Below the pieces are notes generated by a model, which saw only the letters and a list, made by a program, of their open reading frames with translations, was not told the origin of the DNA and made no database searches. Shown here one piece after another: positions 9,026 to 24,329 of a stretch of 64,000 nucleotides of DNA. The DNA is from Heligmosomoides polygyrus polygyrus (taxonomy: Eukaryota > Nematoda > Chromadorea > Rhabditida > Heligmosomidae), in assembly GCA_947396885.1 (NCBI GenBank), contig OX377202.1, positions 83,184,408-83,248,407 of the forward strand, read 5' to 3'. The position numbers and the translations under genes are program-made. The first letter of the stretch is position 1. Each line of letters begins with the position of its first letter.

Positions 9026-9471
9026 TTGCAGAGCCCAGCTGCGGATTCCCCCTGAGCGACGAAAGCAGTCTCCACACGAGCAGCTTGATCGGCACCCACC
9101 CCGGAGTCCCTTCCCTTGCCTGGTCCTGCGCTCCAAGAGCGCGGAACCCAGCTGCGGACTCCCCTGAGCTACGAAAGCAGTCTCCACACCAGCAGCTTGA
9201 TCGGCACCCACCCTGGAGTCCCTTCCCTAGCCTGGTCCTGCGCTCGAAGAGCGCAGAACCCAGCTGCGGACTCCCATAAGCGACGAAGCAGCCTCCACAC
9301 CAGCAGCTTGATCGGCACGCACCCTGGAGTCCCTTCCCTAGCCTGGTCCTGCGCTCGAAGAGCGCAGAACCCAGCTGCGGACTTCCCTAAGCGACGAAAG
9401 CAGCCTCCACACCAGCAGCTTGATCGGCACCCACCCTGGAGTCCCTTCCCTAGAACCCAGCTGCGGACTCT
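9026..9471 (+). repeat. Tandem repeat, about four copies of 111-112 bp
   Basis: Units start with ACGAAAGCAG at 9059 and 9171, ACGAAGCAG at 9282 and ACGAAAGCAG at 9393. Each contains CAGCTTGATCGGCAC, CTGGAGTCCCTTCCC, GGTCCTGCGCTC and AGAACCCAGCTGCGGACT. The last unit is cut short. A diverged further copy lies at 9739-9870. The neighbouring units are about 95 percent alike by eye, so the array is young. Frames running through it on both strands are a by-product of a period divisible by three. Confidence 0.9.
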
Positions 9472-9871
9472 AAGGATCAGCGCTTCCGATTTCATTTGGT
9501 GTTCACGCGTGTAATGATAGCAGTGAACGATTTCGCGCTCCGTGGCGAACGTACGCAGGGCCGCCGCGCTGCTGGCAAATTGCCAACAGCCGCCCTTCGC
9601 CCAACTAATGCGGCCGTTCAGTTCTCCTGTGTTGCGGCATACTCGCATTTCAGCTGACTTCTTGTGATTTGAGTGGCTTTAACGAGCACGCGATATTGAG
9701 GCATTTTTTGCGCATTTTTCCAGCCGTACGCCTTTCGCCGCTCGAAGGGCGCAGAACCCAGCCGCGGATTCCCCGTGAGCGACGAAACCAGTTTCCACAC
9801 AAGCAGCTTTGATGGCACACACCCTGGAGTCCCTTCCCCCTAGCCTGGTTCTGCGCTCGAAGAGCGTAGGC

Positions 9872-12173
9872 GTAGATTCCAGCCGCGGTCTCCCGACGCA
9901 GGGCTAAGAAGGAAAGGTTTCGCGCTTTGTCGCAAAGATGCGTGAGAACTATCGAGCGGATGTCAATTCGTTAGCCCAAATATTGCGGCAGGTGTGCGCG
10001 TGTGATGATTGCTCGCGGTTTGGGGGAGAAAGGAAAACCGCGATGCTATATCCATTCGGTTGTAAATTTAGGTACCCCAAGTTACGTAGTTTCTCCAACA
10101 TTAACAGAAGGCCCAATGATGAGCTCTCCTCAAGGGTTGCAATAACCAACGCACATAGCTATAGTACGGGCCCAGGAGCCAATCTGAGGAATGACAAACG
10201 ATTGGTATGTAACGGGTTAATGGCATTGGATAATTTTACCAATAGTGGATAGTGGGGAGAAGGCAAGTTTGGTATCCATGATATGATATAATTCGATGAA
10301 TGATATAATTCTACCCACAATTCACCGCCTCGTAGAGGCTCTTTAATCTCTTGGTAATGCCCTAATATCTACCGTCTACCCACATTACCCTGGGTAAAGT
10401 TATTCGTGAATCCAGGGTCTGGTTGCAATGCTTATCCAGAAAAATCCAGTCTTGGGTCCGGACGTTAATCACCCTGTAGATGGGCGCGCCTCTCTGCTAG
10501 CCCTCCCCTTTCGTCGACACTCGTCTAAATGCCCGTTGGAGAGGGTCTGCATATAGCTTACTACAGGTAACCGAATCAGTATATATTCATGGAAGCCCAA
10601 AAAACACTAGGCCAAAATAGTTTAAGAAAATCCCTGATAGGCAACGTCTAACAATAAGTTGGAGTGGGCCAACCTTGTTAGAAAACGAAAACGAGCTGCA
10701 AAAGGGGAACTAAGCATATCCAGCAGTGAATCCATAATTTTTCATCGTCACAGATGGGTTAGCAATGGATAACGTGATAAGTGTATCCATTGTTAATTTA
10801 CAGCTTTTTATTAAACTACACCTTCACTCCAATAACCGCGAGCCACTGATCTGCTGCTTTTAGATAACAAATTATAATCATTGAAACAAAGAGTAGAGCA
10901 AAACATGAAAATGGTCACTTCTTGAAAATTCTTGTTAACTCGAAATTTTCGCAGGAGCACCACAACAAGAAAGCAAAAGGAAAAACGAAAAGGAAGAGGT
11001 CGTCCAAATCGAAGGTTTGTATCTTCTCCGAGAAGTGCTTTACATTTAACAATCGTCAAAGTACTTTTGGCTTACCCTTATCATGCCCGGCTCTCCAATG
11101 GAATAATTGGAAACACTCGACTGCGTGGGTGGTTTCAAGTATTTCATCATCGGGCAGCTGCATTCAGGTACCTGGTAAATAATGTAATAGCTGCGGTGTT
11201 ACGCTTCTCCTTAAGTAAATTCGCTAAACAACAATTCTATCAGGGTTGACTAAACGACACCACTAGCATAGGTGCACAAAAAATCGCTTTCGCACGTAGA
11301 CGACCCAATGATGGACTCATAATAAATAGAAGATCATATGGCTGAAATCACTCCTACCGGCCAAAATAAATTAGAGCCGAATGAGATAACTACAAAAGAA
11401 ATATGGCTCCAGGTTTAATTCCAACGCGACGTCGTGCGATCGACTCGGTGCGCTGAAACGCGAACGTGCGCTCGGGGACGCATGGCTAGCCGCGAAGCAC
11501 GAAATTTTACCAGTGGTGAAGCTCTTCGCCCAGTTTTTGGAGGTTTATTCCTGTTTTCTTCAAGTCCTAGTACCACCAGGTACCTCCAAATGGAAAGAAA
11601 GAAGAGCTCATTCGGTGTAGGCGCTTGGAAAAAATGGAAAGCAGTAACATGCGCTTCTGCTTGTAAATTGGGAAAATACGGAGGTTCTCAGTGTCTTCTA
11701 AAGGGGTGCTTGCCAATGGCATTACACGTGAACTATGACAAGTGGGTGACCAAGTGCAGCGTAAAGTTAGAAGTAAGGGACAAGCTACGGATTAGTGCGC
11801 TCATCCTACTTAATAGAAACTTGCAAACATTTGCTTCTGAAACTTCTAGTTAGTAATCCCGTGCTAGTTCTTCTTTCGAATTCCCCTCACCAATCCTTGA
11901 CCTTTTCCATTCACTCATTCGATCTAGATTGAGTCTCGTTCCGCCCGTACTTTGTTAACAACCACTCCCACTTCCCTACCACGAGACATCAGATTTGTTT
12001 TACCCTCATCTCATGTCTCTTTCCTTCTGCGCGGTCGACGTCGCTGACACACGCTTTCGCGCTCTAGCGCGAGTCACTTGCCGTCGCCGCCTTCGTCGGA
12101 AGAAATCGGACCGCGACAACTCGTCCAATTTCTCCTCACACCGTGCGGGTCGCCAAGGATGGGGGGGGGGTGG
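9872..12173. other. No recognised gene
   Basis: Frames at 9938-10252, 10932-11249 and 11434-11853 on the plus strand are open but show no recognisable domain. The part 12030-12170 is richer in GC and ends in a run of ten G directly beside the LTR. Confidence 0.35.
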
Positions 12174-12657
12174 TAAAATTGCTTCAGTGGTTCAGCGTGA
12201 ACTTTTTGCACTTCTGCCACACGCAAATTTCGATCGACGGTTTATTCGATACCTCAAACTTGGGTAATTAAACCAATTTAATTCACTAATTAAAGTAATT
12301 ATTCAAAAATAAAGCAAGTAAGGCACGATCAAATGATTAAATGGATAAAACGCCAAAGAGGGGTTAAGAAGCACACGATAAAGAGAGAGCGAAATAAGAA
12401 ACAACAGACAAAGAAATGCGAAACTCGAAATTAATAAAAAATTAGTAAGCTCAGCGCCGCGCTTTGCCTGGGAGAAGAGATGTTGAATGAAGCGCATGCC
12501 AACGTACTTATAGGACCGTTGGCATTTCCTTCGCGAGATGGCGAGAAAGATAGCGCGGCGCAAAATGCTACAACAACGGCTGGCATGAGAAAATGGCTTA
12601 ACATTTTTCAAACTACTTTTAAAAAAATAGATCACTTAATCGCGTGGATCCGCGATA
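12174..12657 (-). repeat. BEL/Pao LTR, 3' LTR of the minus-strand part
   Basis: It is homologous to 23540-24019 over its whole length with many substitutions and small indels. Read on the minus strand it begins TATCGCGGATCC. It has a CCTATAAGTACG box about 150 nt in, an AATAAA signal near 12240-12245, and ends AATTTTA. It is preceded by a GGTGGGAG purine stretch just after the accessory ORF, as expected for a polypurine tract. The last 101 nt start with a perfect SL1 leader (12253-12274). The last 57 nt are also present just upstream of gag (15932-15988). Confidence 0.85.
12253..12274 (-). promoter_or_regulatory. Exact SL1 spliced-leader sequence inside the LTR
   Basis: On the minus strand these 22 nt start GGTTTAATTACCC and end AAGTTTGAG, identical to the conserved nematode SL1. 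GTATCG follows directly and provides a GT donor, as in SL RNA. In RNA, GGUUUA can pair with UAAACC 14 nt after the donor, and UACC with GGUA across the splice site, which is the shape of SL RNA stem-loop I. The LTR end is 101 nt from the first base. The match is seen directly; its function is inferred. Confidence 0.9.
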
Positions 12658-12674
12658 CTCCCACCGCCGGCGTC

Positions 12675-14057
12675 CTAGTCATCAAGGTGTCGAAGGTCCT
12701 CCTGTAGAGCACGGATGCGGTCCACGGTAGAGGTCAGCGATCTGCGGGCATTCATAAGATTCTCCGAAATCTCCTCGCTTCGTTCGGGGAGCTCACACAA
12801 GGCGGAATGGTGTTCTCGACTACGACAATGGAAGCAGCGCCAGTTATACTTCGGGCAGTCAGCGCCTCCTGGACAGGGCTCCAAACACAGCACGCATTTC
12901 CCCGCGTCCTCAATTACGTTGCGGCGCTGGCGTGCGGACCGAACTCTGTAGCAGGAGTCGGAGTAGTGATCTCCAACTTCCCTGCAAAAAGCGCAGCGCA
13001 TAAATCGGTCCTCCCTCTGCCGAATACTTCCACGTCCAAACCTCCTTGGACGGCACTGGCGTTGACTGCGCAGATCCCGGATGATGTGCTCCAGGTTGTT
13101 TCGAGCTTGCTGCAGCTGCGCAAGCTCTGCCAAAATCTGGTTTCGGCGCTCTTCGTTGTTGACCTGTCGTTCTGGTTCCGCCTCCAGCTCCACATCTTCT
13201 TCCTGGTCATTGGCCTGCTCAACTTCTTCATTCTGCTCACCTCCAGCCTCATCAACCTCCTCTAAAAATTCCGCGTTGTTGTTGATAACATCCCCTTCGT
13301 GGTCTTCCATAGGGATGTCCTCCGGCGCAGGCGCATTGTTGTTGCGTTGCTCTTGCTGGTCAGGAGGTTGTTGTGCTCTCTGTTCCTCCATCATACGTAA
13401 CAGTTGATTTAGCACTTGTTGGAGGTTTGCCATTTGCGCCGCTATCTGTTGTTGGAACGCTTCGTCCCTCAGGTGTTCCTCAGATGCAAGCGCTGTGCGC
13501 AGCTCTGTTAGTGTAGAGCGATGAGAGTCGAGAACTTGAAGTTGGTCTGCAATGGCCGTTTCGATGACGTTTGGTTTCATGAGGAGCGGCTTTCCGTCAT
13601 CATTAAACTGTGGGTTGCTCATCCAGGCATCCCAGACGTTCTCGCTTATTTTCCCAGTGGCGAAAAGCAGCTCAGGTGCGGCGAAAAGCGTGCGGAGCTG
13701 GCATCGCACGAACAGAAATTCGAGCCTCAGCTTGTCGGCAGTGACTTCCAGAAGCGACAGCTCATGGAGTCGCGCATCCAAATCTTCCTTTGACCTTGCA
13801 AGCGCCCGAATACGTTCTTCTAACTGTGTCATCTTCTTCGTACACGCATGAAACTCGTGGCAACGGTCGATTGTGTTGACGTACAGGCGATCCGGGTCAG
13901 GAAGAGGTGGAAGTGCACGGCGTAGTTTCTTCAATTCATTGGAGACCTCGGCGAGGTTCTTGCGTGCGTCCTCGAGTTCGTGCTTTTTCATGTAATACAT
14001 ATGGCGCAGGCGCTGAACCTCTTCCCTTGCCTCGAACAGTTCTCGCAGCGATTCCAT
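12675..14057 (-). CDS. Gag-like accessory protein of the BEL/Pao element, zinc knuckles
   Basis: This is a 460-residue open frame from ATG 14057 to a stop at 12675, lying between env and the 3' LTR. Residues 1-90 are heptad-like and charged (coiled coil), and residues 220-320 are Gln- and Glu-rich. The C-terminal third holds cysteine motifs: CAFCREVGDHYSDSC, CVLCLEPCPGGADC and a canonical CX2CX4HX4C knuckle, CFHCRSREHHSALC. This suggests a nucleic-acid-binding, Gag-like role, but it is unrelated in sequence to the gag at 16142-17470. A strong splice acceptor lies just before the ATG (14058-14075), so it is probably made from a spliced mRNA. The frame is fully open, so it may still be intact. 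Its exact function is unknown to me. Confidence 0.75.
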   Translation of the reverse strand: MESLRELFEAREEVQRLRHMYYMKKHELEDARKNLAEVSNELKKLRRALPPLPDPDRLYVNTIDRCHEFHACTKKMTQLEERIRALARSKEDLDARLHELSLLEVTADKLRLEFLFVRCQLRTLFAAPELLFATGKISENVWDAWMSNPQFNDDGKPLLMKPNVIETAIADQLQVLDSHRSTLTELRTALASEEHLRDEAFQQQIAAQMANLQQVLNQLLRMMEEQRAQQPPDQQEQRNNNAPAPEDIPMEDHEGDVINNNAEFLEEVDEAGGEQNEEVEQANDQEEDVELEAEPERQVNNEERRNQILAELAQLQQARNNLEHIIRDLRSQRQCRPRRFGRGSIRQREDRFMRCAFCREVGDHYSDSCYRVRSARQRRNVIEDAGKCVLCLEPCPGGADCPKYNWRCFHCRSREHHSALCELPERSEEISENLMNARRSLTSTVDRIRALQEDLRHLDD

Positions 14058-14075
14058 TGTCTGAAAAACAGAAAT
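14058..14075 (-). promoter_or_regulatory. Splice acceptor of the accessory ORF
   Basis: On the minus strand TTCTGTTTTTCAG is followed by ACA and the ATG at 14057. It is a textbook nematode 3' splice site, three bases before the start codon. It could accept SL1 in trans or the SL1-bearing leader of the LTR in cis. Confidence 0.75.
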
Positions 14076-14312
14076 TATGTTTTCGCAGTTAGACTATCAT
14101 GTTTGTGCACTATTTCCAGCGCAGGTGCCAGTGGCTCGTTTACAGGTTTCTGATGACTAATCGTAGTGCAGTGCATAAGAATCGATTATCGATTTCTCAT
14201 TATATTTCATAGCGCAGCGTTCTTCTTGCATGCGAATCGATTATTGGTGACTAAGCAGTTTTCTTAGAGGGCGCGGGCCTATGCGCATATCGACGCCGAA
14301 GAGCGCACATGA

Positions 14313-15983
14313 TCACACAGCCACACGTATAGGCAATCCTATGGCTGCGCACATGGCGCGCACAATGCCAAGTAGGAGACGCGCTCCCACCGTAGTTAGG
14401 CATGTGTAGGACACGAGTAGGGCTAATGCCACTCCAAGAACCGCTAGAAATAAAGTCTTATACCATGACAACATGACATCAATGATGTGTTCAAAGTCAG
14501 GCCAGCGGAATTCATCGTAAATTTTGCTATTTCCTGCTACTTTTGCCAGGTGCAGTAGATGGATGGTATTAACATATTTGAGGATACCGCTGAGTGTGAA
14601 ATGTTTTTTAATCGTACCACATGACACAGTGCAGTATATTAACTGGCGAGCGGAGTCGAACTGAAAATGCAATGTTGATTTAGGTCCTTCTGGTCCACAT
14701 GGAATGACGAAGGTGTTGTCATCACAAAGTACTTCTGCGGTGTTTTCCTTTGAAGACGTACACTGTACAAGAGCATGTGCGCCGCTTGCACAGTTATAAC
14801 ACCCACGTACGGCTGAATTCTCAACTGAACAAATGTTGTCTTGAACCTCAATGACTGCCGTATCAAGCGAGTGGTTAAGATTGAAGATGATTTCGGCTGA
14901 TACCAAATGAGGGATCTTGGCAATGACGGATGTACTATTGCTGCGAGTGAGCTCCCAGAATGCTGTTTTCACAGGAACTTTGAGTGAAATTTGGGCAAAT
15001 TCCTCCTCAATATTAAGGGGAGCGCAGTCGCAGTTAACAGTCGATTCTGCACCTGTGCACTTGCATTTGTCGTGTAAGGTACAGTTCATGGCTTGCGCAT
15101 CCGTCCGTGTTCCGCAGTGTAAAACTGGTGAGAGATGTGTATTCCAAATCGCTGTATCGATACCGTCTGTGATAAAGGTGCTTGCGAGCGCGGGTGTAGG
15201 CGGTAGCGACAGAGACGTCAAAGTGATTTTGAACTGAGGCAACTCAACCGGAACATTTGGGATGGTCCGCACAACAAATTGTTGTTTACACAGTCTACCA
15301 TTGCCGTTTTCAATCTCGACTTCTAGCTTCACTTGCTCCGTCCACCGAACACATCGGAAAATTTCATAGATTTTCCGGGTTTTTGGTGTAGCGAAGACCC
15401 GAAAGAACAGACACCCGCTGCTTAGGTAAAAACAATCGCAACCAGGCCCCCCACAGGACTCTAAACAACCTGTGCGGCCCGGGTAACTGTTCGCCTCCTC
15501 CAGTTCAGGTATGAGACTGGAGCTGTTAACTGCAGCGCACTTCAATCCCGAACAAGACCCCATGTGGGGGCAACGCTTACTAGTAAGAACCTTAAGATCT
15601 GCTGAACGCGTGAAGTACATCGTCTCCTGATTGCAGTGCAAATAAAGGCCCTTCCATCGAATTTTTACGTTTGCCACCAGAGTGGAGTTGTGAGTTAGGC
15701 GCAAGCAAGCCTCCTGCTTGAATGTACTGATTTTCATCACTTCGGATAATGCTATAGAGCACAATTCCATCCCATTTCTTATTCGGCAAACCGTAGAGCG
15801 ATGCTCGAGTATGTTAAGCTCCTGGCAGCTGCTGGCGCGACTAGGAATTTGTAAGAAGAACATTATGATTGCAAGCGCAGCGGCCAAGCGAGCATCTTGG
15901 GCCGGTCGTGGTGCTCTACAAAGTTTTTTGCAAATTTGCGTGTGGCAGAAGTGCAAAAAGTTCACGCTGAACCACTGAAGCAA
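14313..15983 (-). pseudogene. BEL/Pao env-like glycoprotein, 5'-truncated minus-strand copy
   Basis: This is an open frame of about 540 env residues whose first 17 codons are LTR sequence read backwards; there is no ATG, so the 5' part is missing. It belongs to the phlebovirus-G2-like glycoproteins found in nematode BEL/Pao elements: many paired cysteines (CGGPGCDC, CTGAES, NCDC), a hydrophobic segment near the start (AALAIIMFFL) and a C-terminal membrane anchor near residues 500-530 (LFLAVLGVALALLVSY). The overlap with the plus-strand copy (22345-23391) is nearly identical; one visible change is Arg to Gln in the FVV-T-IP stretch. The C-terminus, absent from the plus copy, is complete here. 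Confidence 0.85.
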
Positions 15984-15988
15984 TTTTA
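15932..15988 (+). repeat. Last 57 bp of the 5' LTR of the plus-strand element
   Basis: It matches the end of the LTR (AAATTTGCGTGTGGCAG to CAATTTTA) in the sense orientation of gag. The rest of the LTR, including SL1, is missing because the inverted env copy begins directly at its left edge. TGGTGCATCG at 15989-15998 follows, which is the first ten bases of the primer-binding site seen at the other LTR. Confidence 0.8.
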
Positions 15989-16141
15989 TGGTGCATCGCT
16001 TGATCGGACCAAGGCTGTGAAAGAGGTACGATTCCTCCTATTTCACGTTGGTGCACTAGCGACGCGCAAGCAAAGGTGCTGCAATTTCGACGTCCTTTGA
16101 ATCTCCTTTTTTTCTTTTTCGTCTTTTTGCTCGTATCTACC

Positions 16142-17470
16142 ATGGCCGGCGCTACATCTTTAAAGTCCCATAAGTCGCTCTTAACTCGTTATTGCAATAT
16201 TCTAGAGCGCCTCCTTAAAGATAATGAAAGCGCTGGCGCTGAAAATAGGGACGAGTCTTCTTTATGGAATAGGAATACTTGCGTTCAAATGCAGTCCCTA
16301 GCTCTGCAGATTCATTCAACATCGCAATTGGTTTTGGAGGCTTTGAATTCCTTTACGGCTACGGTAGACTCGGTAATCGATTCACTTAGTGAGGAGCAAG
16401 AGGCACAAGTGGACGAATACATCGAGAAAGCGCACGCAATTCTCGAACGTGCTCGAGTCGTAGCTATCAAAATTGAGTGCAACCGTATCTGTGCCCGTGA
16501 TAATGCGCCACTACAAGGCAGCTCTACGGTACAGCACTCTAGAACCTTGGATAGAGAAGTAGGAGTAGCGCAGGCGAAGCTGCCAGCCATCCCTATTCCA
16601 CTATTTAGTGGTAACATTTGGGAATTTCGAAACTTTTGGACATTATTTGAGGAAAACGTCCATAAACAACCTCTAACCAATTTGCAAAAATTCAACTACT
16701 TGTTGAATGCGCTGCACGGCGAAGCTCTAGCAACTGTACGTCGTTATCCCGTAACGGAGGCCAACTATGAGGCTGCAGTTAACCTCTTGTGCAAGAAATA
16801 TGGCGATGACACGAAGTACATCGCTTGTCTACAGACGCGCTTAGAGGCTGCTAAGGCAGAAAACGTCACCATTGCAGCACAGCGCCGACTGTTGGAATTC
16901 ATTATTCCGATAGTAACCCAACTAGAAGAAAGGGGTGTCTCTCTGGACGGTTCCTTCGTCGTACAAAAAGTGCTCTCAAAGTTTTTTATGGAACTTCAGC
17001 GCAAGGCGCTTGCACGACGAATGGGTCCAGAGGCAGCAGATAAGACTTGGTCTATGAAAGAGACGCTATCTGATCTTGACGAAATTATATCGCTGGAGGA
17101 GCGAATAAACGAAATGGTAGGCAAAAGCCCTGTGGAGGCACATGCAATTACTAGAGAAATCAACCACTATGGGGTTCAATCATCACCTCTGACGCCACAG
17201 TGTTTGTTTTGTGGTAGTAACATCCACAAGTCAATGATGTGTAATAAGTGCTCCACAATTAAGGAAAGAAGCGATGTGTTTCGCGAGCAAAATAGGTGTC
17301 TCAACTGTGCGACACCCGGACATTGGGTAAAGGATTGTCAAAGGAGCGGGTGCAAGACATGCAATGGGAAGAAGCACCACCACACCCTTTGTCCACAACG
17401 AGGCCTGCAACCGCGCAGTGGCGGAGGGAGCTGGCGGTGCAGAGACCTATCGGAGCACAAAGGAACTTGA
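16142..17470 (+). CDS. BEL/Pao Gag
   Basis: The start is the ATG at 16142 in the context ACCATGG; the open frame extends 66 nt upstream but only through a T-rich leader. The product is about 442 residues. Around residues 148-235 lies the core shared by BEL/Pao Gag proteins (DUF1759 type), including FSGNIWEFRNFW and NALHGEAL. The C-terminus has cysteine-histidine nucleic-acid-binding motifs: CLFCGSNIHKSMMCNKC near residue 354 and CLNCATPGHWVKDC near 386. The last 175 nt overlap pol, which is in the -1 frame. I see no classical slippery heptamer in the overlap, so how pol is reached is open. The frame has no stop. Confidence 0.88.
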   Translation: MAGATSLKSHKSLLTRYCNILERLLKDNESAGAENRDESSLWNRNTCVQMQSLALQIHSTSQLVLEALNSFTATVDSVIDSLSEEQEAQVDEYIEKAHAILERARVVAIKIECNRICARDNAPLQGSSTVQHSRTLDREVGVAQAKLPAIPIPLFSGNIWEFRNFWTLFEENVHKQPLTNLQKFNYLLNALHGEALATVRRYPVTEANYEAAVNLLCKKYGDDTKYIACLQTRLEAAKAENVTIAAQRRLLEFIIPIVTQLEERGVSLDGSFVVQKVLSKFFMELQRKALARRMGPEAADKTWSMKETLSDLDEIISLEERINEMVGKSPVEAHAITREINHYGVQSSPLTPQCLFCGSNIHKSMMCNKCSTIKERSDVFREQNRCLNCATPGHWVKDCQRSGCKTCNGKKHHHTLCPQRGLQPRSGGGSWRCRDLSEHKGT

Positions 17471-20400
17471 CGACGACGGCCAGGCAACTACCCCCTAAGC
17501 CCAAACAAGCGCAGGCACACGCATGTGGTACGACCGCCAGCGCAATCGAAACGGCATCTCCCCCCGTAAACACAGACGTGTCAGGGATCGTGCTTTCCAG
17601 CATGAAACGTGATTGTGTACATGCTGATGGTGAAAACGAATGCCTATTTGAACGTAGCAATGTTCTACTACTAACAGGCATAGCTACCGTACGAGACTCC
17701 AGGCGGAACGCCTGGAGAGATGTGGAAATCTTACTAGACACTGGCGCAGACCAATCTTTCATAAGCAATAGTCTAGTGGAAGAGTTGGGTCTCCCGTGTA
17801 AAAAACGAACCGATCTTATTGTATACACTTTCGGAACAAATACGCCAAAACAAACCAAATGTGAGGCCACCACATTGGACTTGTTCGACAACGATGGCGT
17901 TAAGCATGAGTTGTGCCTGTACACCACCCCAGTACTAACTGCTAAGGGTAAAAGTGTGCAGTTAAGCACCGCAGATGTGGAATACATCACGCAACATAAC
18001 ATCCGTCTCTCGAAGGGAAGTGGCCAAAGCGCACAGGCACCGCAAATTCTCTTGGGGTGCGACCAGTTGTGGACTTTTCTTGATGTGCCATCCCCGCACC
18101 ATACCTTGCCGTCTGGACTGCAACTTGTTCCCTCGCGACTAGGCTACTTGCTGAGTGGCAAGCAAAGGTTAGCGCAAGTCAAAGGTAGTGAAGGAAATGA
18201 AGGTGACTCCAACGCTAACGACATGTCGATATCCGTGAATTCACTGGTAAACTTCGACGAAGAGTTGGATAGATGGGATAAATATTGGACTATAGACTCC
18301 GCCGGAGTTTACGAATTTACTGGTACGAAAAATGCAGAAAAGACCGAGATCAACGCGCAAGTAGCCAAGTTTTTTGAGGATAACATCGAACGACGTACAG
18401 ATGGCTACTACATACGCTTTCCTTACAAGGAAAATTGTAGCCAGCTACCGACAAACAAGGCTATTGCGCAGAAACGATTATACTCCGTACTGGAAATGCT
18501 GAAAAAGACACCGCAACTGCTAAGCGACTATAACGAAATCTTCCACGCGCAGCAAGAAAGCGGTATCATTGAAGAGGTTGCGGACTCGTCAACCGCAGAG
18601 GGAGTAATAACCCACTACATCCCTCACCAGCCGGTATTCACACCGCAAAAGGAAACAACCAAATTACGAATTGTTTTCGATGCGTCAGCGCACTTCAAAG
18701 GCAAGCCTTCATTGAATGACGTACTTCATCAAGGACCGCTCATTCTACCGGAGCTTTATGCAATGCTAGTGCGCTTCAGAATTCCGAAGTTTGTTGTGAT
18801 TTCTGACGTTGAAAAGGCGTTTCTACAAGTGCGCTTGCACGAGTCAGACAGAGACGCCACCAGATTTTTATGGGTGCGAGATTTAAATGGCCCACTGGAT
18901 GAACAAAATATTGTGACATTCCGATTTACTCGAGTGACTTTCGGTCTGAATGTCTCTCCATATTTGCTCAGTGGAACCATTCACCATCACCTACGCTGTG
19001 CTGTAGACGACAAAACCTTGGCGGATGAAATTCAAGACAATTTGTACGTCGACAATCTCATACTCTCAGCAACTTCGTTAAAGGAAGCAACCAAGAAGTC
19101 TTTGGATGCGCGCAAAATCTTTAGCGAAATGGGGATGAACCTAAGGGAATTCCTCTCCAATGACAGCACGTTGCTCCATCACTTACCAGAGGAGGCATGT
19201 GCTAAGTCTACTGCAACAAAGGTACTTGGAATACCCTGGGACTCAGAAATGGATACAATGACAGCAGGATGTGTTTTACCTCCATCAGATGCGACAACAA
19301 AACGCACTGTCGCACGCCAAATCGCCTCCGTCTACGATCCCTTAGGATGGCTTGTACCATTGCTAATTCCAGCCAAGGTATTTCAGCAGAACTTGTGGAG
19401 GGAGAGATTTTCATGGGATACTCAGCTACCTCCAGATATGCAGGACAAGTGGATGAAAATTGTAGGCAACATAGACGGTTTTCAAAAGACCATTCCGAGA
19501 CGGTTTTCAAACAATTCTGAAGAACAGAATTTAGCGATTTTCGCAGACGCAAGCGAGGTCGCAATAGCTGCCTGTGGCTATATTTTCACCAGAACCACTT
19601 CTTCGCTGGTGATCGCCAAAAGTAAACTTCCGTCAATTAAGGCAAAGACTACAATGCCAAAATTAGAAATGAACGCGCTAACGATAGCAACACGCTTAGC
19701 GTTATCCATTTCACAAGCAGTAAAGAAAAAGGCCCCAGGATATCCATGGAAGATCTACATTTTCTCTGATTCTCAGATAGTGCTCAATTGGCTTTCTTCA
19801 ACGCGCTGCACAAATTTGGGAGTCCTGGTTTCAAACAGACTTCAAGAAATGCGTCGCATCGTCAGCCAATTGAACAAGGATTCCGTAACTGTTGCCTTCG
19901 GATACGTAAACACCCTAGATAATCCTGCTGATGCAGGTACTCGTGGTCTGACCCGAGTCCAGATGCAAGATCACTTCTGGTGGACAGGACCGGAGTTCCT
20001 GATTAACCCAGTAGAAAACTGGCCTGTAACGTGGTATCCGCTAAGCGACGAAGACAACTGCGACAACGTTGCAATTATGAATGTGGCCAGCGTAGAAAAC
20101 AATGCGGTGACGGAGTTGGTAGATTGGAAGCGATATAGCTCCTTTTCTACCGTGAAGCGTGTAACCGCACTTGTTCTACGGTTCCTCAAGCATCTCATGC
20201 GCTCGTTCAGCAACGCACGAAAGAAAGCAATATTCGAGCGCATTCCAGAGCTCAACGATATAGCTCTTAATTCTGATCCTTTAAATGGACAAGAAATGAG
20301 AGCAGCGAGATTCGCTTTGATTCGCAATCACCAACTTATTCATTTGACAAGTCACTACCGGAAGTCCATGGAGAACACGTTGCGCCTCTATAAGGATACA

Positions 20401-23400
20401 CATGGTATTTGGCGTTCCAGAGGACGAATTGGTCGTTCCACGTTGGACGATAGCGCAAAAAATCCTGTATTTATTGCGCCCAACACCGCACTTGCGCGCC
20501 GTATTATCCAAGAAGCGCATGGAACCTACCACTGTGGCGTTGAACACACAATAGCAGAAGTACGACAGCAATACTGGATTCCAAAGCTACGCCAGCAAGT
20601 TCGGAAAATATCTACGCATTGCGTGAAATGCCGACGATTTAATGCTCTCCCGTATTGCTACCCAGATTCCTCGGATCTACCACTTCAAAGAGTCGTGCGA
20701 TGCAAACCGTTCCAATACACTGGCTTAGATTTTTTCGACCTACCGCCTTGTACTGAAAACGGTGAGAAAACCAAATTATACGGATGCATCTTTACATGCA
20801 CAGTCACTCGGTTACTTCACTTGGAAGTGGTTCGCAGTACAGCAACCAATGAATTTCTAAACGCTTTGCGCCGCTTTGTAGCAAGACGTGGAGTTCCAGA
20901 CTCCATCATTTGCGATAACGCGCCAACCTTCCTACTCAGCGCAAATATCCTGAGTGAGCAAAATGAGGGAGTCCAAGTAGATGTTGCCCGCAGCCTCGCA
21001 GAAAAGGAAATTCGTTGGAAACATATTACGCCCTATGCACCCTGGCAAGGAGGATTTTACGAGAGGTTAATAAAATCGATAAAATATGCCATCTACAAAG
21101 CTTTGCGCGGCGCAAGACAGCGATCGTTTGACGACATTCATACCTTCGTTGTCGAAGTCGAAGCATGCCTAAACTCCCGTCCATTAACTTACCAGGCTTC
21201 ACAACAAGAAGAAATGTCGTCGGTGCGCCCAATTGACTTTTTACAAAAGGATATTACGCTTACTGTGAATCTGTCTCATTTGGAGAACAGCGATGACGAC
21301 TCTGAATACTATCCTCCAGAAATTCTGCGTGCTATTCAAACTCGGAAGCAGGTTATAGACGCCCTATCATCATCGTATAAAGAAACAGAACGCTTCTGGA
21401 CAATCTGGCATCAACAATACTTAACTTCTCTACGAGAAAACCATCGAAGATTGCCGACGAATCGCAGGCTCGGACGAAATATTGCAGCCGTTGGCGATGT
21501 TGTGCTCGTGAGCGACCCCGTTTTGCCCAGAAACGAATGGAAAATGGGGCGTATAACTGACTTGCGAAAAGGCTCGGATGGCGAGGTTCGAGAGGCAGAA
21601 CTTATCACTGGAACAAGAAGGAAAATTCGTCGCCCTGTCAATCTCTTGATTCCCCTCGAAGTTCAAGATGACGAAGAACAGGTGCAATCCCCGGCAGTAA
21701 ATGGGGAACATTCTCAGACCCCTACTGCAGCTCCAACACAACAACAGCGATATAATTTACGCCCCCGGACCCAAGTGCACTATGTTGAGAACAGCACTAC
21801 CGCAGGCAAGAAACTGGCAAAATCTTCGCCTAAGTGGTTCCTATTCCACATAATGCTATTGTGCCTTTTCCAACTAGGAAGTGGAAACGAGATGCGCATG
21901 AGCTGCACACAGAATGGAGTTCTTGTTCATGCTGGAACCTCTCAGAACTTTGAAATTTGCGCAGAGCACGTATGCAAGGCGCAATTCTTCGAAAAGGACC
22001 CACATCTCGTCCGCTTTCCACCAGAAATTACGATTCATCATCACAATGTTATTCTCAAGTGGTACACTGGATCGCAACTGGCAACAATGGAAACAGAATG
22101 CCCTGCTGTGGACTTCTGCTCTAGTATTGACTGCTGGATGTGTCTTTCAGTCCTACTGAACCCAGAATGTTGGCCCCTCGGAGCAATTTCGGTCCTTGCT
22201 CTCATTTTATACAGCGTGATTGCTATATTATACCTCTTGCTGTATGTACCGATGACAATCGGGAAACCCATCCGCATAATGCTAAAGGGTATTCGGATAT
22301 GGTTGACTTTGACTTTGCGCTGTTCAAGGTACTGCCTCACGCGCATTTGCAAAAAACTTTGTAGAGCACCACGACCGGCCCAAGATGCTCGCTTGGCCGC
22401 TGCGCTTGCAATCATAATGTTCTTCTTACAAATTCCTAGTCGCGCCAGCAGCTGCCAGGAGCTTAACATACTCGAGCATCGCTCTACGGTTTGCCGAATA
22501 AGGAATGGGATGGAATTGTGCTCTATAGCATTATCCGAAGTGATGAAAATCAGTACATTCAAGCAGGAGGCTTGCTTGCGCCTAACTCACAACTCCACTC
22601 TGGTGGCAAACGTAAAAATTCGATGGAAGGGCCTTTATTTGCACTGCAATCAGGAGACGATGTACTTCACGCGTTCAGCAGATCTTAAGGTTCTTACTAG
22701 TAAGCGTTGCCCCCACATGGGGTCTTGTTCGGGATTGAAGTGCGCTGCAGTTAACAGCTCCAGTCTCATACCTGAACTGGAGGAGGCGAACAGTTACCCG
22801 GGCCGCACAGGTTGTTTAGAGTCCTGTGGGGGGCCTGGTTGCGATTGTTTTTACCTAAGCAGCGGGTGTCTGTTCTTTCGGGTCTTCGCTACACCAAAAA
22901 CCCGGAAAATCTATGAAATTTTCCGATGTGTTCGGTGGACGGAGCAAGTGAAGCTAGAAGTCGAGATTGAAAACGGCAATGGTAGACTGTGTAAACAACA
23001 ATTTGTTGTGCAGACCATCCCAAATGTTCCGGTTGAGTTGCCTCAGTTCAAAATCACTTTGACGTCTCTGTCGCTACCGCCTACACCCGCGCTCGCAAGC
23101 ACCTTTATCACAGACGGTATCGATACAGCGATTTGGAATACACATCTCTCACCAGTTTTACACTGCGGAACACGGACGGATGCGCAAGCCATGAACTGTA
23201 CCTTACACGACAAATGCAAGTGCACAGGTGCAGAATCGACTGTTAACTGCGACTGCGCTCCCCTTAATATTGAGGAGGAATTTGCCCAAATTTCACTCAA
23301 AGTTCCTGTGAAAACAGCATTCTGGGAGCTCACTCGCAGCAATAGTACATCCGTCATTGCCAAGATCCCTCATTTGGTATCAGCCGAAATCATCTTCGCT

Positions 23401-23424
23401 TGGCCGCTGCGCTTGCAATCATAA
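17296..23424 (+). CDS. BEL/Pao Pol-Env polyprotein, env truncated
   Basis: One 2042-codon frame. In order: aspartic protease with LLDTGADQSFIS near residue 147; reverse transcriptase with DVEKAFLQVRL near 504 and LYVDN (YVDD-type site) near 583; peptidase A17/RNase H region with FADASE near 745; integrase zinc site HX3-H-CX2C type near 1075-1115 (CGVEHT to HCVKCRR); integrase core Asp near 1143, DNAP near 1205 and GGFYERLIKS Glu near 1252; then a DUF5641-like C-terminal domain near 1390-1460. From about residue 1512 an env-like, phlebovirus-G2-type glycoprotein follows with a signal-like hydrophobic stretch and several membrane segments. It breaks off at 23391 and ends in a 29-bp shard of its own 5' part. 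There is no internal stop before the break. Enzymatic domains look intact; env does not. Confidence 0.92.
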   Translation: MSQLCDTRTLGKGLSKERVQDMQWEEAPPHPLSTTRPATAQWRRELAVQRPIGAQRNLTTTARQLPPKPKQAQAHACGTTASAIETASPPVNTDVSGIVLSSMKRDCVHADGENECLFERSNVLLLTGIATVRDSRRNAWRDVEILLDTGADQSFISNSLVEELGLPCKKRTDLIVYTFGTNTPKQTKCEATTLDLFDNDGVKHELCLYTTPVLTAKGKSVQLSTADVEYITQHNIRLSKGSGQSAQAPQILLGCDQLWTFLDVPSPHHTLPSGLQLVPSRLGYLLSGKQRLAQVKGSEGNEGDSNANDMSISVNSLVNFDEELDRWDKYWTIDSAGVYEFTGTKNAEKTEINAQVAKFFEDNIERRTDGYYIRFPYKENCSQLPTNKAIAQKRLYSVLEMLKKTPQLLSDYNEIFHAQQESGIIEEVADSSTAEGVITHYIPHQPVFTPQKETTKLRIVFDASAHFKGKPSLNDVLHQGPLILPELYAMLVRFRIPKFVVISDVEKAFLQVRLHESDRDATRFLWVRDLNGPLDEQNIVTFRFTRVTFGLNVSPYLLSGTIHHHLRCAVDDKTLADEIQDNLYVDNLILSATSLKEATKKSLDARKIFSEMGMNLREFLSNDSTLLHHLPEEACAKSTATKVLGIPWDSEMDTMTAGCVLPPSDATTKRTVARQIASVYDPLGWLVPLLIPAKVFQQNLWRERFSWDTQLPPDMQDKWMKIVGNIDGFQKTIPRRFSNNSEEQNLAIFADASEVAIAACGYIFTRTTSSLVIAKSKLPSIKAKTTMPKLEMNALTIATRLALSISQAVKKKAPGYPWKIYIFSDSQIVLNWLSSTRCTNLGVLVSNRLQEMRRIVSQLNKDSVTVAFGYVNTLDNPADAGTRGLTRVQMQDHFWWTGPEFLINPVENWPVTWYPLSDEDNCDNVAIMNVASVENNAVTELVDWKRYSSFSTVKRVTALVLRFLKHLMRSFSNARKKAIFERIPELNDIALNSDPLNGQEMRAARFALIRNHQLIHLTSHYRKSMENTLRLYKDTHGIWRSRGRIGRSTLDDSAKNPVFIAPNTALARRIIQEAHGTYHCGVEHTIAEVRQQYWIPKLRQQVRKISTHCVKCRRFNALPYCYPDSSDLPLQRVVRCKPFQYTGLDFFDLPPCTENGEKTKLYGCIFTCTVTRLLHLEVVRSTATNEFLNALRRFVARRGVPDSIICDNAPTFLLSANILSEQNEGVQVDVARSLAEKEIRWKHITPYAPWQGGFYERLIKSIKYAIYKALRGARQRSFDDIHTFVVEVEACLNSRPLTYQASQQEEMSSVRPIDFLQKDITLTVNLSHLENSDDDSEYYPPEILRAIQTRKQVIDALSSSYKETERFWTIWHQQYLTSLRENHRRLPTNRRLGRNIAAVGDVVLVSDPVLPRNEWKMGRITDLRKGSDGEVREAELITGTRRKIRRPVNLLIPLEVQDDEEQVQSPAVNGEHSQTPTAAPTQQQRYNLRPRTQVHYVENSTTAGKKLAKSSPKWFLFHIMLLCLFQLGSGNEMRMSCTQNGVLVHAGTSQNFEICAEHVCKAQFFEKDPHLVRFPPEITIHHHNVILKWYTGSQLATMETECPAVDFCSSIDCWMCLSVLLNPECWPLGAISVLALILYSVIAILYLLLYVPMTIGKPIRIMLKGIRIWLTLTLRCSRYCLTRICKKLCRAPRPAQDARLAAALAIIMFFLQIPSRASSCQELNILEHRSTVCRIRNGMELCSIALSEVMKISTFKQEACLRLTHNSTLVANVKIRWKGLYLHCNQETMYFTRSADLKVLTSKRCPHMGSCSGLKCAAVNSSSLIPELEEANSYPGRTGCLESCGGPGCDCFYLSSGCLFFRVFATPKTRKIYEIFRCVRWTEQVKLEVEIENGNGRLCKQQFVVQTIPNVPVELPQFKITLTSLSLPPTPALASTFITDGIDTAIWNTHLSPVLHCGTRTDAQAMNCTLHDKCKCTGAESTVNCDCAPLNIEEEFAQISLKVPVKTAFWELTRSNSTSVIAKIPHLVSAEIIFAWPLRLQS

Positions 23425-23522
23425 TGTCGACGTCCTTTGAATCTCCTTTTTTTCTTTTTCGTCTTTTTGCTCGTATCTACCATGGCCGGCGCTACATCTT
23501 TAAAGTCCCATAAGTCGCTCTT
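23392..23522 (+). other. Rearrangement junction made of element shards
   Basis: After env stops at about 23391, 23397-23426 repeats env 22390-22419. Next, 23427-23522 repeats the gag leader and first codons (16087-16182). Then the primer-binding site and an LTR follow in opposite orientation. This is a patchwork and not a normal 3' end of the element. Confidence 0.85.
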
Positions 23523-23539
23523 TCCCGGCCGATGCACCA
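23522..23539 (-). promoter_or_regulatory. Primer-binding site, matches 3' end of tRNA-Gly
   Basis: On the minus strand TGGTGCATCGGCCGGGAA directly follows the LTR end. Its complement ends CCGGCCGATGCACCA, the 3' end of eukaryotic tRNA-Gly(GCC) with CCA. This fixes the LTR orientation as minus and its end at 23540. Confidence 0.8.
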
Positions 23540-24019
23540 TAAAATGGATCAGTGGTTCAGCTTGAACTTATAGCACTTCTGCCACACACGAAAATCGACC
23601 GATGGTTTATTCGATACCTCAAACTTGGGTAATTAAACCAGTGATAAATAAGTGATTAAAGAAATTATACGTAAGTTCAAAAAATAAGGCACAAATAGAT
23701 GCTTGAATGGATGGATAAGATTAAGTGAAAGGTCAGCGCATAGCTAAAGAGAGCAAGAACTAGGGGAAGTTAAATAAGAATAAGAAACACTGAGAAGAAA
23801 AATTAATAAGCATGAGGCGCCGCGCTGTGCACTGAAGAGAAGATGTTGACTGAAGCGCATGCCGCCGTACTTATAGGACCGTTGGCATTTGCTTCGCGAG
23901 ATGAAGAGATAGATAGCGCGGCGCGAAATGCTACAACGACGGCTGGCATGAGAAAATGACTTAACATTTGCAAACTACTTTACAAAAATTAGATCATTTA
24001 ATCGCGTGGATCCGCGATA
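23540..24019 (-). repeat. BEL/Pao LTR, second copy, with primer-binding site
   Basis: It is homologous to 12174-12657 and in the same (minus) orientation. It begins TATCGCGGATCC, has CCTATAAGTACG, an SL1 copy at 23618-23639 and AATAAA, and ends ATTTTA next to the primer-binding site. By position it is a 5' LTR, yet the sequence beyond the primer-binding site is an inverted gag leader. The two LTRs differ at many sites, so they are not a freshly made pair. Confidence 0.85.
23618..23639 (-). promoter_or_regulatory. Exact SL1 spliced-leader sequence in the second LTR
   Basis: Identical 22 nt to 12253-12274, again followed by GTATCGAATAAACC, so donor and pairing partner are kept. Flanking LTR sequence on the upstream side has diverged strongly between the two copies. 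The distance from the first SL1 base to the LTR end is 100 nt. Both copies also keep a small hairpin (GTTCA, NGC, TGAAC) near the LTR end. Confidence 0.9.
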
Positions 24020-24329
24020 GGTGGGCTCGCCCGGCGTTTGAGTTATGTCTGCCCCTCAAGCAATATAGTGTCGACCGAATATCATCGTGAATTAAACCAG
24101 TAAAACAGTCTTCTATTCTGATGTAGTGCAAAGTGACTCCATGTGGTAGTCACTAGGTGGTTCAATGAGTATCCGTGAACATCAGGAGAAAAAAATACCC
24201 CCATAGCTTCGAGTTGTTTGAGAGTGCTCAAGCATAAGAGTACACATCAGAGCGACTTAACATAATGAGTTTTGCGCCACTTCTAACGTGACGTGTGACG
24301 CCATTACAAGGTCAACTTCGGAGGCGGAT

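Follow-up and report, generated by a model that had tools for sequence, protein, structure and literature searches.

Exact SL1 spliced leaders in the long terminal repeats of BEL/Pao elements of Heligmosomoides polygyrus: a probable R region

Why do both long terminal repeats (LTRs) of a retroelement from Heligmosomoides polygyrus contain the nematode spliced leader SL1, and what would it do there? The window, which is the whole 64,000-nt stretch analysed here, contains two minus-strand copies of SL1, each exact over 22/22 nt and situated in one of two terminal repeats (Table 1); these were its sole matches to SL1 at up to three mismatches, and none appeared in 100 shuffles. Each copy is followed by GTATCGAA, and the first base of SL1 is 101 nt from the end of the left LTR and 100 nt from the end of the right one; the exact leaders and both distances agree with a preliminary description of this locus. 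In a self-comparison the two LTRs are 78.9 % identical, and the 36-nt block formed by SL1 and GTATCGAATAAACC lacks any mismatch, as against 75.9 % identity in U3 and 81.5 % in the remainder of U5. The preliminary description had emphasized that this block was kept while its upstream flank diverged; the difference was reproduced, but a perfect run of at least 36 nt between the LTRs also occurred in 64/5000 shuffles.

The primer-binding site TGGTGCATCGGCCGGGAA, which we take to be of the tRNA-Gly type, and the purine tract both lie on the minus strand, indicating that the repeats are minus-strand LTRs and that SL1 is in sense orientation within them. The two LTRs belong to different subfamilies, yet GGTGG is common to both outer flanks. 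Elsewhere in the window, positions 9049–9838 contain direct repeats, spaced by ~112 nt in four of five copies.

Gene content supports the earlier assignment of these LTRs to a BEL/Pao element. Searched in pieces, the window gave Pfam matches to DUF1759 (7e-20), Peptidase_A17 (8.3e-23), RVT_1 (9.1e-08) and Integrase_H2C2 (2.2e-13), that is, the gag with DUF1759 and the Pao-type pol of Belpaoviridae (BEL/Pao). Its env matched PF07245 (2.6e-94) and, as the closest solved structure, 7a4a (5.9e-30), presumably the Gc of Atlas virus; it codes for a class II, Gc-like Env of the phlebovirus-like Atlas type. The named gag relatives among the matches listed (19 proteins, with 8000 candidates scored) were from Ancylostoma, Necator, Haemonchus, Trichostrongylus, Ostertagia and Angiostrongylus, the best of them being hookworm proteins. 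The terminal features also agree with the ICTV profile of Belpaoviridae, which gives a tRNA-Gly or tRNA-Arg primer site, a purine tract of ~10 nt and LTRs of 0.2–1.2 kb: TGGTGCATCGGCCGGGAA adjoins the right LTR and the purine-rich tract the left one, and the LTRs are 484 and 480 nt long.

The interior of the provirus (12658–23539) is rearranged, as indicated by three features: the LTRs, primer site and purine tract are on the minus strand and the gag-pol-env genes between them on the plus strand; the env copies at 14883–15948 and 22332–23397 are inverted repeats with 99.5 % identity over 1066 nt; and a plus-strand piece of U5 precedes gag.

Table 1. Positions of the element and its parts in the window.
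Feature	Position	Strand	Basis
Left terminal repeat, 3′ LTR in minus-strand orientation, 484 nt	12174..12657	-	self-comparison; ends and flanks
Right terminal repeat, 5′ LTR in minus-strand orientation, 480 nt	23540..24019	-	self-comparison; ends and flanks
Exact SL1 exon, left LTR	12253..12274	-	motif search
Exact SL1 exon, right LTR	23618..23639	-	motif search
36-nt perfect block, SL1 and GTATCGAATAAACC, left LTR; putative R region, or at least the 5′ part of R	12239..12274	-	LTR comparison; mosaic LTRs
36-nt perfect block, SL1 and GTATCGAATAAACC, right LTR	23604..23639	-	LTR comparison
AATAAA poly(A) signal, +7 after SL1, left LTR	12241..12246	-	
AATAAA poly(A) signal, +7 after SL1, right LTR	23606..23611	-	
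GU-rich motif CGTGTGGC, possible downstream poly(A) element	12216..12223	-	
Remainder of U5, left LTR, L type	12174..12238	-	LTR comparisons
Remainder of U5, right LTR, R type	23540..23603	-	LTR comparisons
Primer-binding site TGGTGCATCGGCCGGGAA, complementary to the tRNA-Gly 3′ end, directly after right LTR	23522..23539	-	
Purine-rich tract with one T, directly before left LTR, candidate polypurine tract	12658..12668	-	
GGTGG, candidate target-site duplication, outer side of left LTR	12169..12173	.	
GGTGG, candidate target-site duplication, outer side of right LTR	24020..24024	.	
gag with DUF1759 (zinc knuckle below cut-off), strand opposite to LTRs	16142..17470	+	
Open pol-env frame: protease, RT, Pao peptidase, integrase, Phlebovirus_G2	17296..23424	+	searched in three pieces
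Second env copy, inverted	14313..16037	-	
Terminal piece of U5 with beginning of primer site, preceding gag; 57 nt match left LTR end exactly	15932..15998	+	
Open frame, 472 aa, without Pfam match	12675..14093	-	

Leaders of this kind are numerous in the host genome (656 Mb), with 2235 exact copies of SL1 (1197 + 1038; control, 0) and 4594 at up to one mismatch. An exact SL1 precedes the tRNA-Gly primer site TGGTGCATCG by 94–124 nt in 80 cases genome-wide, with TGGTGCATCG coming 72–102 nt after the leader, and in none of the reversed control. Comparison of the first 58 bases of U5, with an edit-distance limit of 18 (the minimum of 300 shuffled comparisons being 24), assigned these 80 copies to 17 U5 families. 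Three young LTR pairs show the same organization: their LTRs are 813, 448 and ~192 nt long and 99.0, 99.1 and 99.5 % identical, SL1 begins 104, 122 and ~111–114 nt before the LTR end, a tRNA-Gly primer site follows one copy in each, and the flanks, judged by eye, contain the 5-bp duplications TGTCC, CACAC and TGGAG. Of nine frames scanned behind or beside LTRs with SL1, the gag-side frame had DUF1759, the BEL gag domain, in five of the six elements with such a frame (L073, L076, L049, L090 and L085), and only a weak GIY-YIG match in L015; a second frame of L076 and the 3′-side frame of L072 had no match, and the 3′-side frame of L075 stayed below the cut-off. When the first 25 of the 437 tRNA-Gly primer sites were examined, SL1 was present 87–161 nt before the site in nine (five exact, four with one or two mismatches) and not in 16. 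SL1 is thus a mark of one class of tRNA-Gly-primed LTRs, not of all. No exact SL1 was found in the viral contigs searched, and a C. elegans-type SL2 pattern, which may not fit this worm, had 0 matches in this genome.

SL1 also occurs in other settings. The first 92 exact SL1 places on contig 1 (loci L001–L090), which we examined individually, comprise LTR-like families, an CTGAAGAAGGC...GCCGAAACG repeat, likely retrocopies of host mRNAs and single cases, and GT immediately follows SL1 in 54 of them. The CTGAAGAAGGC...GCCGAAACG repeat, presumably Penelope-like to judge from its appearance, has SL1 at its head in L004, L010, L018, L027, L030, L047, L068 and L086, sometimes in head-to-head pairs. 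L020 (C1:3439104-3440136) is a tandem array of six SL1-bearing LTR-like pieces with a period of ~200 nt. Two SL1-headed frames resemble copies of mRNAs, for which we assume the gene names NEDD8-like and CNBP-like: L087 (C1:23721588, minus) is intronless and looks like a NEDD8-like mRNA copy, and L079 (C1:16850959, plus) has a CNBP-like mRNA likeness over its start only.

In the LTRs, conservation of the leader extends little beyond its 3′ end. When seven of the 22 SL1 positions were freed, the count rose only from 80 to 90, in a sample conditioned on the other 15 positions; four of the ten additional variants were readable, with T5C in three families and A7G in one. No T5C SL RNA gene was found, the T5C exon with the first 11 bases of the intron having no exact match in the genome, and a host SL variant as the source of T5C was for that reason rejected. 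Among the representatives of the 17 families, the first position past SL1 (+1) is occupied by G in 15 cases and by A in two, and position +2 by T in 14 and by C in three, resulting in the dinucleotides GT (12/17), GC (3/17) and AT (2/17); from +3 on there is no base preference, and +3 to +6 do not show that of a splice donor. An obligatory splice donor was accordingly discarded, GT being absent from five families. The 36-mer of the window family, at up to three mismatches, occurs in 22 places, 13 of them exact; the nine variants contain five changes in the 22 bases of SL1 (two of which represent one duplicated insertion) and 14 changes in the 14 bases that follow (a single shift accounting for three of them). 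A7G, shared by two places, was not retained as an inherited variant of the leader, since the places have common outer flanks and probably derive from one duplicated insertion.

Poly(A) signals occur on both sides of the leader. In 94 contexts (the 92 places on contig 1 and the two window copies), AATAAA was found within 60 nt upstream of SL1 in eight, always at distance 0 (two of them being one LTR pair), and within 60 nt downstream at +7 in seven and at +37 to +39 in eight. Genome-wide, AATAAA directly precedes 260 of the 2235 exact copies, and it is situated at +4 to +16 in six of the 17 families, including that of the window. In lying within the LTR and adjoining a poly(A) signal, SL1 corresponds to a retroviral R, although AATAAA is not present in every family; from these positions, poly(A) sites would fall within or just after SL1. 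A motif, CGCGTGGC, recurs ~16–52 nt after SL1 in the otherwise different U5s of many SL1 LTRs (e.g., L073, L082 and L085), and is possibly a downstream poly(A) or packaging element.

Some LTRs are mosaics with a switch at the leader. The left window LTR shares 98 % identity with L118 and L119 in U5 and 61 and 60 %, respectively, in U3, whereas the right one is 96 % identical to L118 in U3 and 77 % in U5; in the comparison of the left LTR with L118, the two sequences disagree at the base preceding SL1, and their identity sets in with SL1 base 1. Likewise, L082 and L090 are 99 % identical in U5 and 61 % in U3 (shuffled mean 51, maximum 58), and as both have AATAAA directly before SL1, the position of the switch is uncertain by the length of this signal. 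A less convincing mosaic is L029, with 97 % identity in U3 and 72 % in U5 to L078, and 90 % in U5 and 78 % in U3 to L006. Two other candidates were discarded: the duplicated copies L088 and L089 have the same U3 plus a ~270-nt insertion exactly between U3 and SL1, rather than a template switch, and the pairs of L045 with like U3 and unlike U5 reflect that its U5 is cut short after ~22 nt. Mosaics of this type are the trace expected if R-U5 strong-stop cDNA moves to another RNA. They are few and could have been made by ordinary recombination or conversion, although a preference for SL1 base 1 is not what one expects of ordinary recombination.

We consider it probable that SL1 represents R, or the first 22 bases of R, in these LTRs. 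To judge from the arrangement of the LTRs, the RNA of the element probably starts with SL1. Its 5′ end would be SL1 base 1, and its other end would extend into the SL1 copy of the 3′ LTR, up to a poly(A) site that the neighbouring AATAAA would determine. In reverse transcription, pairing through SL1 would then bring the initial cDNA (R-U5) to the far end, and, different BEL/Pao families having the same R, the U5 of one could become joined to the U3 of another. The leader may have entered as a spliced exon, by copying of a trans-spliced element RNA into DNA: the edges of the shared block approximate those of the SL1 exon (base 1 at one side, the splice junction plus a two-base preference at the other), which points to the copying of a trans-spliced RNA and to a source in the spliced leader instead of an SL RNA gene. 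The SL1-headed intronless NEDD8-like copy also suggests that trans-spliced RNAs get copied into this genome. The predominance of G and T at +1 and +2 (15 and 14 of 17 families) is not explained by a plain R region.

Other origins of the leader are less consistent with these data. Chance had already been dismissed in the preliminary description, which named one recent insertion of an SL1-bearing cDNA as the event that would undermine its reading; either origin is hardly tenable since, even if SL1-headed retrocopies seem to exist, the leader is found at a like LTR position in 17 families, with 0 in the control and none in 100 window shuffles, which rules out a single recent insertion. The preliminary description itself proposed that an SL RNA was either the source or the model of the LTR end, and that the element could donate SL1 in cis or in trans. 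This proposal agrees with the exact SL1, with GT in 12 of 17 families, with a total length near 100 nt and with the pairing it predicted across the splice site, GGUUUA with UAAACC and UACC with GGUA, which is possible in the window LTRs and resembles stem I. UAAACC is, however, the tail of AATAAACC, a poly(A) signal, so that the pairing bases belong to AATAAA; AT or GC replaces GT in five families, and no donor preference exists at +3 to +6. For comparison, we used the presumed true SL1 RNA genes of this worm, a tandem array (C13:83947888-83994891) with a spacing of mostly ~1117 bp, situated ~0.7 Mb from the window. Against the Rfam SL1 model (RF00198), a check suggested in the preliminary description, the LTR tails scored 21.0 and 19.8 bits, below the cut-off of 75, although falling short of it says little by itself, because the presumed true genes, which were identified by their tandem arrangement, an Sm-like site and a 3′ stem, have best scores of no more than 43–46 bits (43.1 for the array). 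A scan of the window against Rfam found no family at its cut-off. The LTRs share the 22-nt exon with the nematode SL1 RNA gene, including the presumed host gene (L091), as well as, for the majority of families, the two bases next to it; beyond these they differ from L091, the tails having no likeness to its intron in 19 comparisons (p 0.05–0.95). The 101- and 100-nt tails have ordinary folds (z -0.74 and -0.93 against shuffles), that of the 36-nt block being slightly better (z -1.83; 8/200 shuffles as good). An SL RNA derivation or mimicry is thus improbable; what stands of that interpretation is that SL1 is conserved in the LTRs and has to do with the 5′ terminus of the element RNA. An SL1 exon spliced in cis may still occur, but none of the analyses gave a sign of it.

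How SL1 would be maintained as R can be conceived in two ways. Host SL1 RNA might trans-splice the pre-RNA of the element in every round, the fresh 5′ R then overwriting R in the new DNA, a possibility that we hold tentatively. It would fit with the block edges being close to the exon edges and the tails unlike the SL RNA intron, with the rarity of SL1 variants in spite of the differences among the U5s of 17 families, and with the apparent origin of the sole shared variant of the window family (two places with shared flanks) from a duplicated insertion. It also agrees with the lack of a fixed -30 TATA box in 29 hand-picked upstream regions. On the other hand, SL1 must then itself be the acceptor, and a leader ending in GAG is a poor splice acceptor, which somewhat weakens repeated trans-splicing at SL1; T5C recurs with no T5C SL RNA gene, and the preference for mostly GT is left unaccounted for. 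The inference of the Brugia malayi authors that leaders were added to Pao RNAs (PMC7181701) is in line with trans-splicing in every round. Alternatively, and with some doubt, SL1 could have been captured once and kept as transcription initiates there, the 22 nt and the GT acting as a promoter element. Hannon and co-workers reportedly described in 1990 such a role for the 22 nt and GT of the Ascaris SL RNA gene. Initiation at SL1 would account for a preference extending two bases past the exon, with the G and T of the SL RNA in 15 and 14 of 17 families, and would place an AATAAA preceding SL1 upstream of the RNA start; TATAATT is also present at -30 in the right window LTR. This was the only such case among the 29 hand-picked upstream regions, and a general TATA box at -30 was accordingly rejected; five regions score >5 at -15, in AT-rich sequence. 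In a promoter element, moreover, one would expect greater tolerance of substitutions than was found. The GT preference does not clearly favour either trans-splicing in every round or initiation at SL1.

SL1 next to elements of this type has a precedent in Brugia malayi, a distantly related nematode. The preliminary description had suggested a search of the earlier literature on nematode BEL elements, which led to this case: of the 120 copies of SL1 situated apart from SL genes, 60 are no more than 1 kb away from a Pao element, sometimes two flanking one element on the same strand, and the authors inferred that leaders had been added to expressed Pao elements and integrated with them (PMC7181701). 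There SL1 is described as flanking within 1 kb, and the passages concerned give no LTR position, R, poly(A) signal or mosaic. Atlas virus and the endogenous belpaoviruses of Ancylostoma ceylanicum (PMC9094657) likewise have a BEL/Pao gag-pol-env with a phlebovirus-like Gc; the LTRs of Atlas virus are 271 nt, and the term "spliced leader" is absent from the text. The RNA of another nematode LTR element, Cer1 (Ty3/gypsy) of C. elegans, likewise meets SL1 trans-splicing, but in this case SL1 is on a spliced 2.4-kb mRNA and the 8-kb genomic RNA is not trans-spliced at that site, and the passages on Cer1 mention no SL1 within its LTR (PMC3315495). The presence of SL1 beside Pao elements is thus already known from Brugia malayi, whereas a role as R region, or any SL1 in the R of an LTR, was not found in the literature searched, which left out most subscription papers.

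It is conceivable, if short of probable, that host trans-splicing installs the 5′ repeat in each cycle, that the 3′ LTR carries a matching SL1 and that this common R lets otherwise dissimilar families exchange U3 and U5, in which case a whole class of nematode retroelements would lack an R of its own. If this were true, the joining of retroelement RNA ends would hang on a product of host RNA processing, in many families at once. It would explain the exact SL1 in LTRs that otherwise differ, the reshuffling of U3 and U5, and the scatter of SL1 in worm genomes, which is a nuisance for SL-based annotation. The finding bears on how the belpaoviruses of nematodes, some of them with open envelope genes, form the 5′ end of their RNA.
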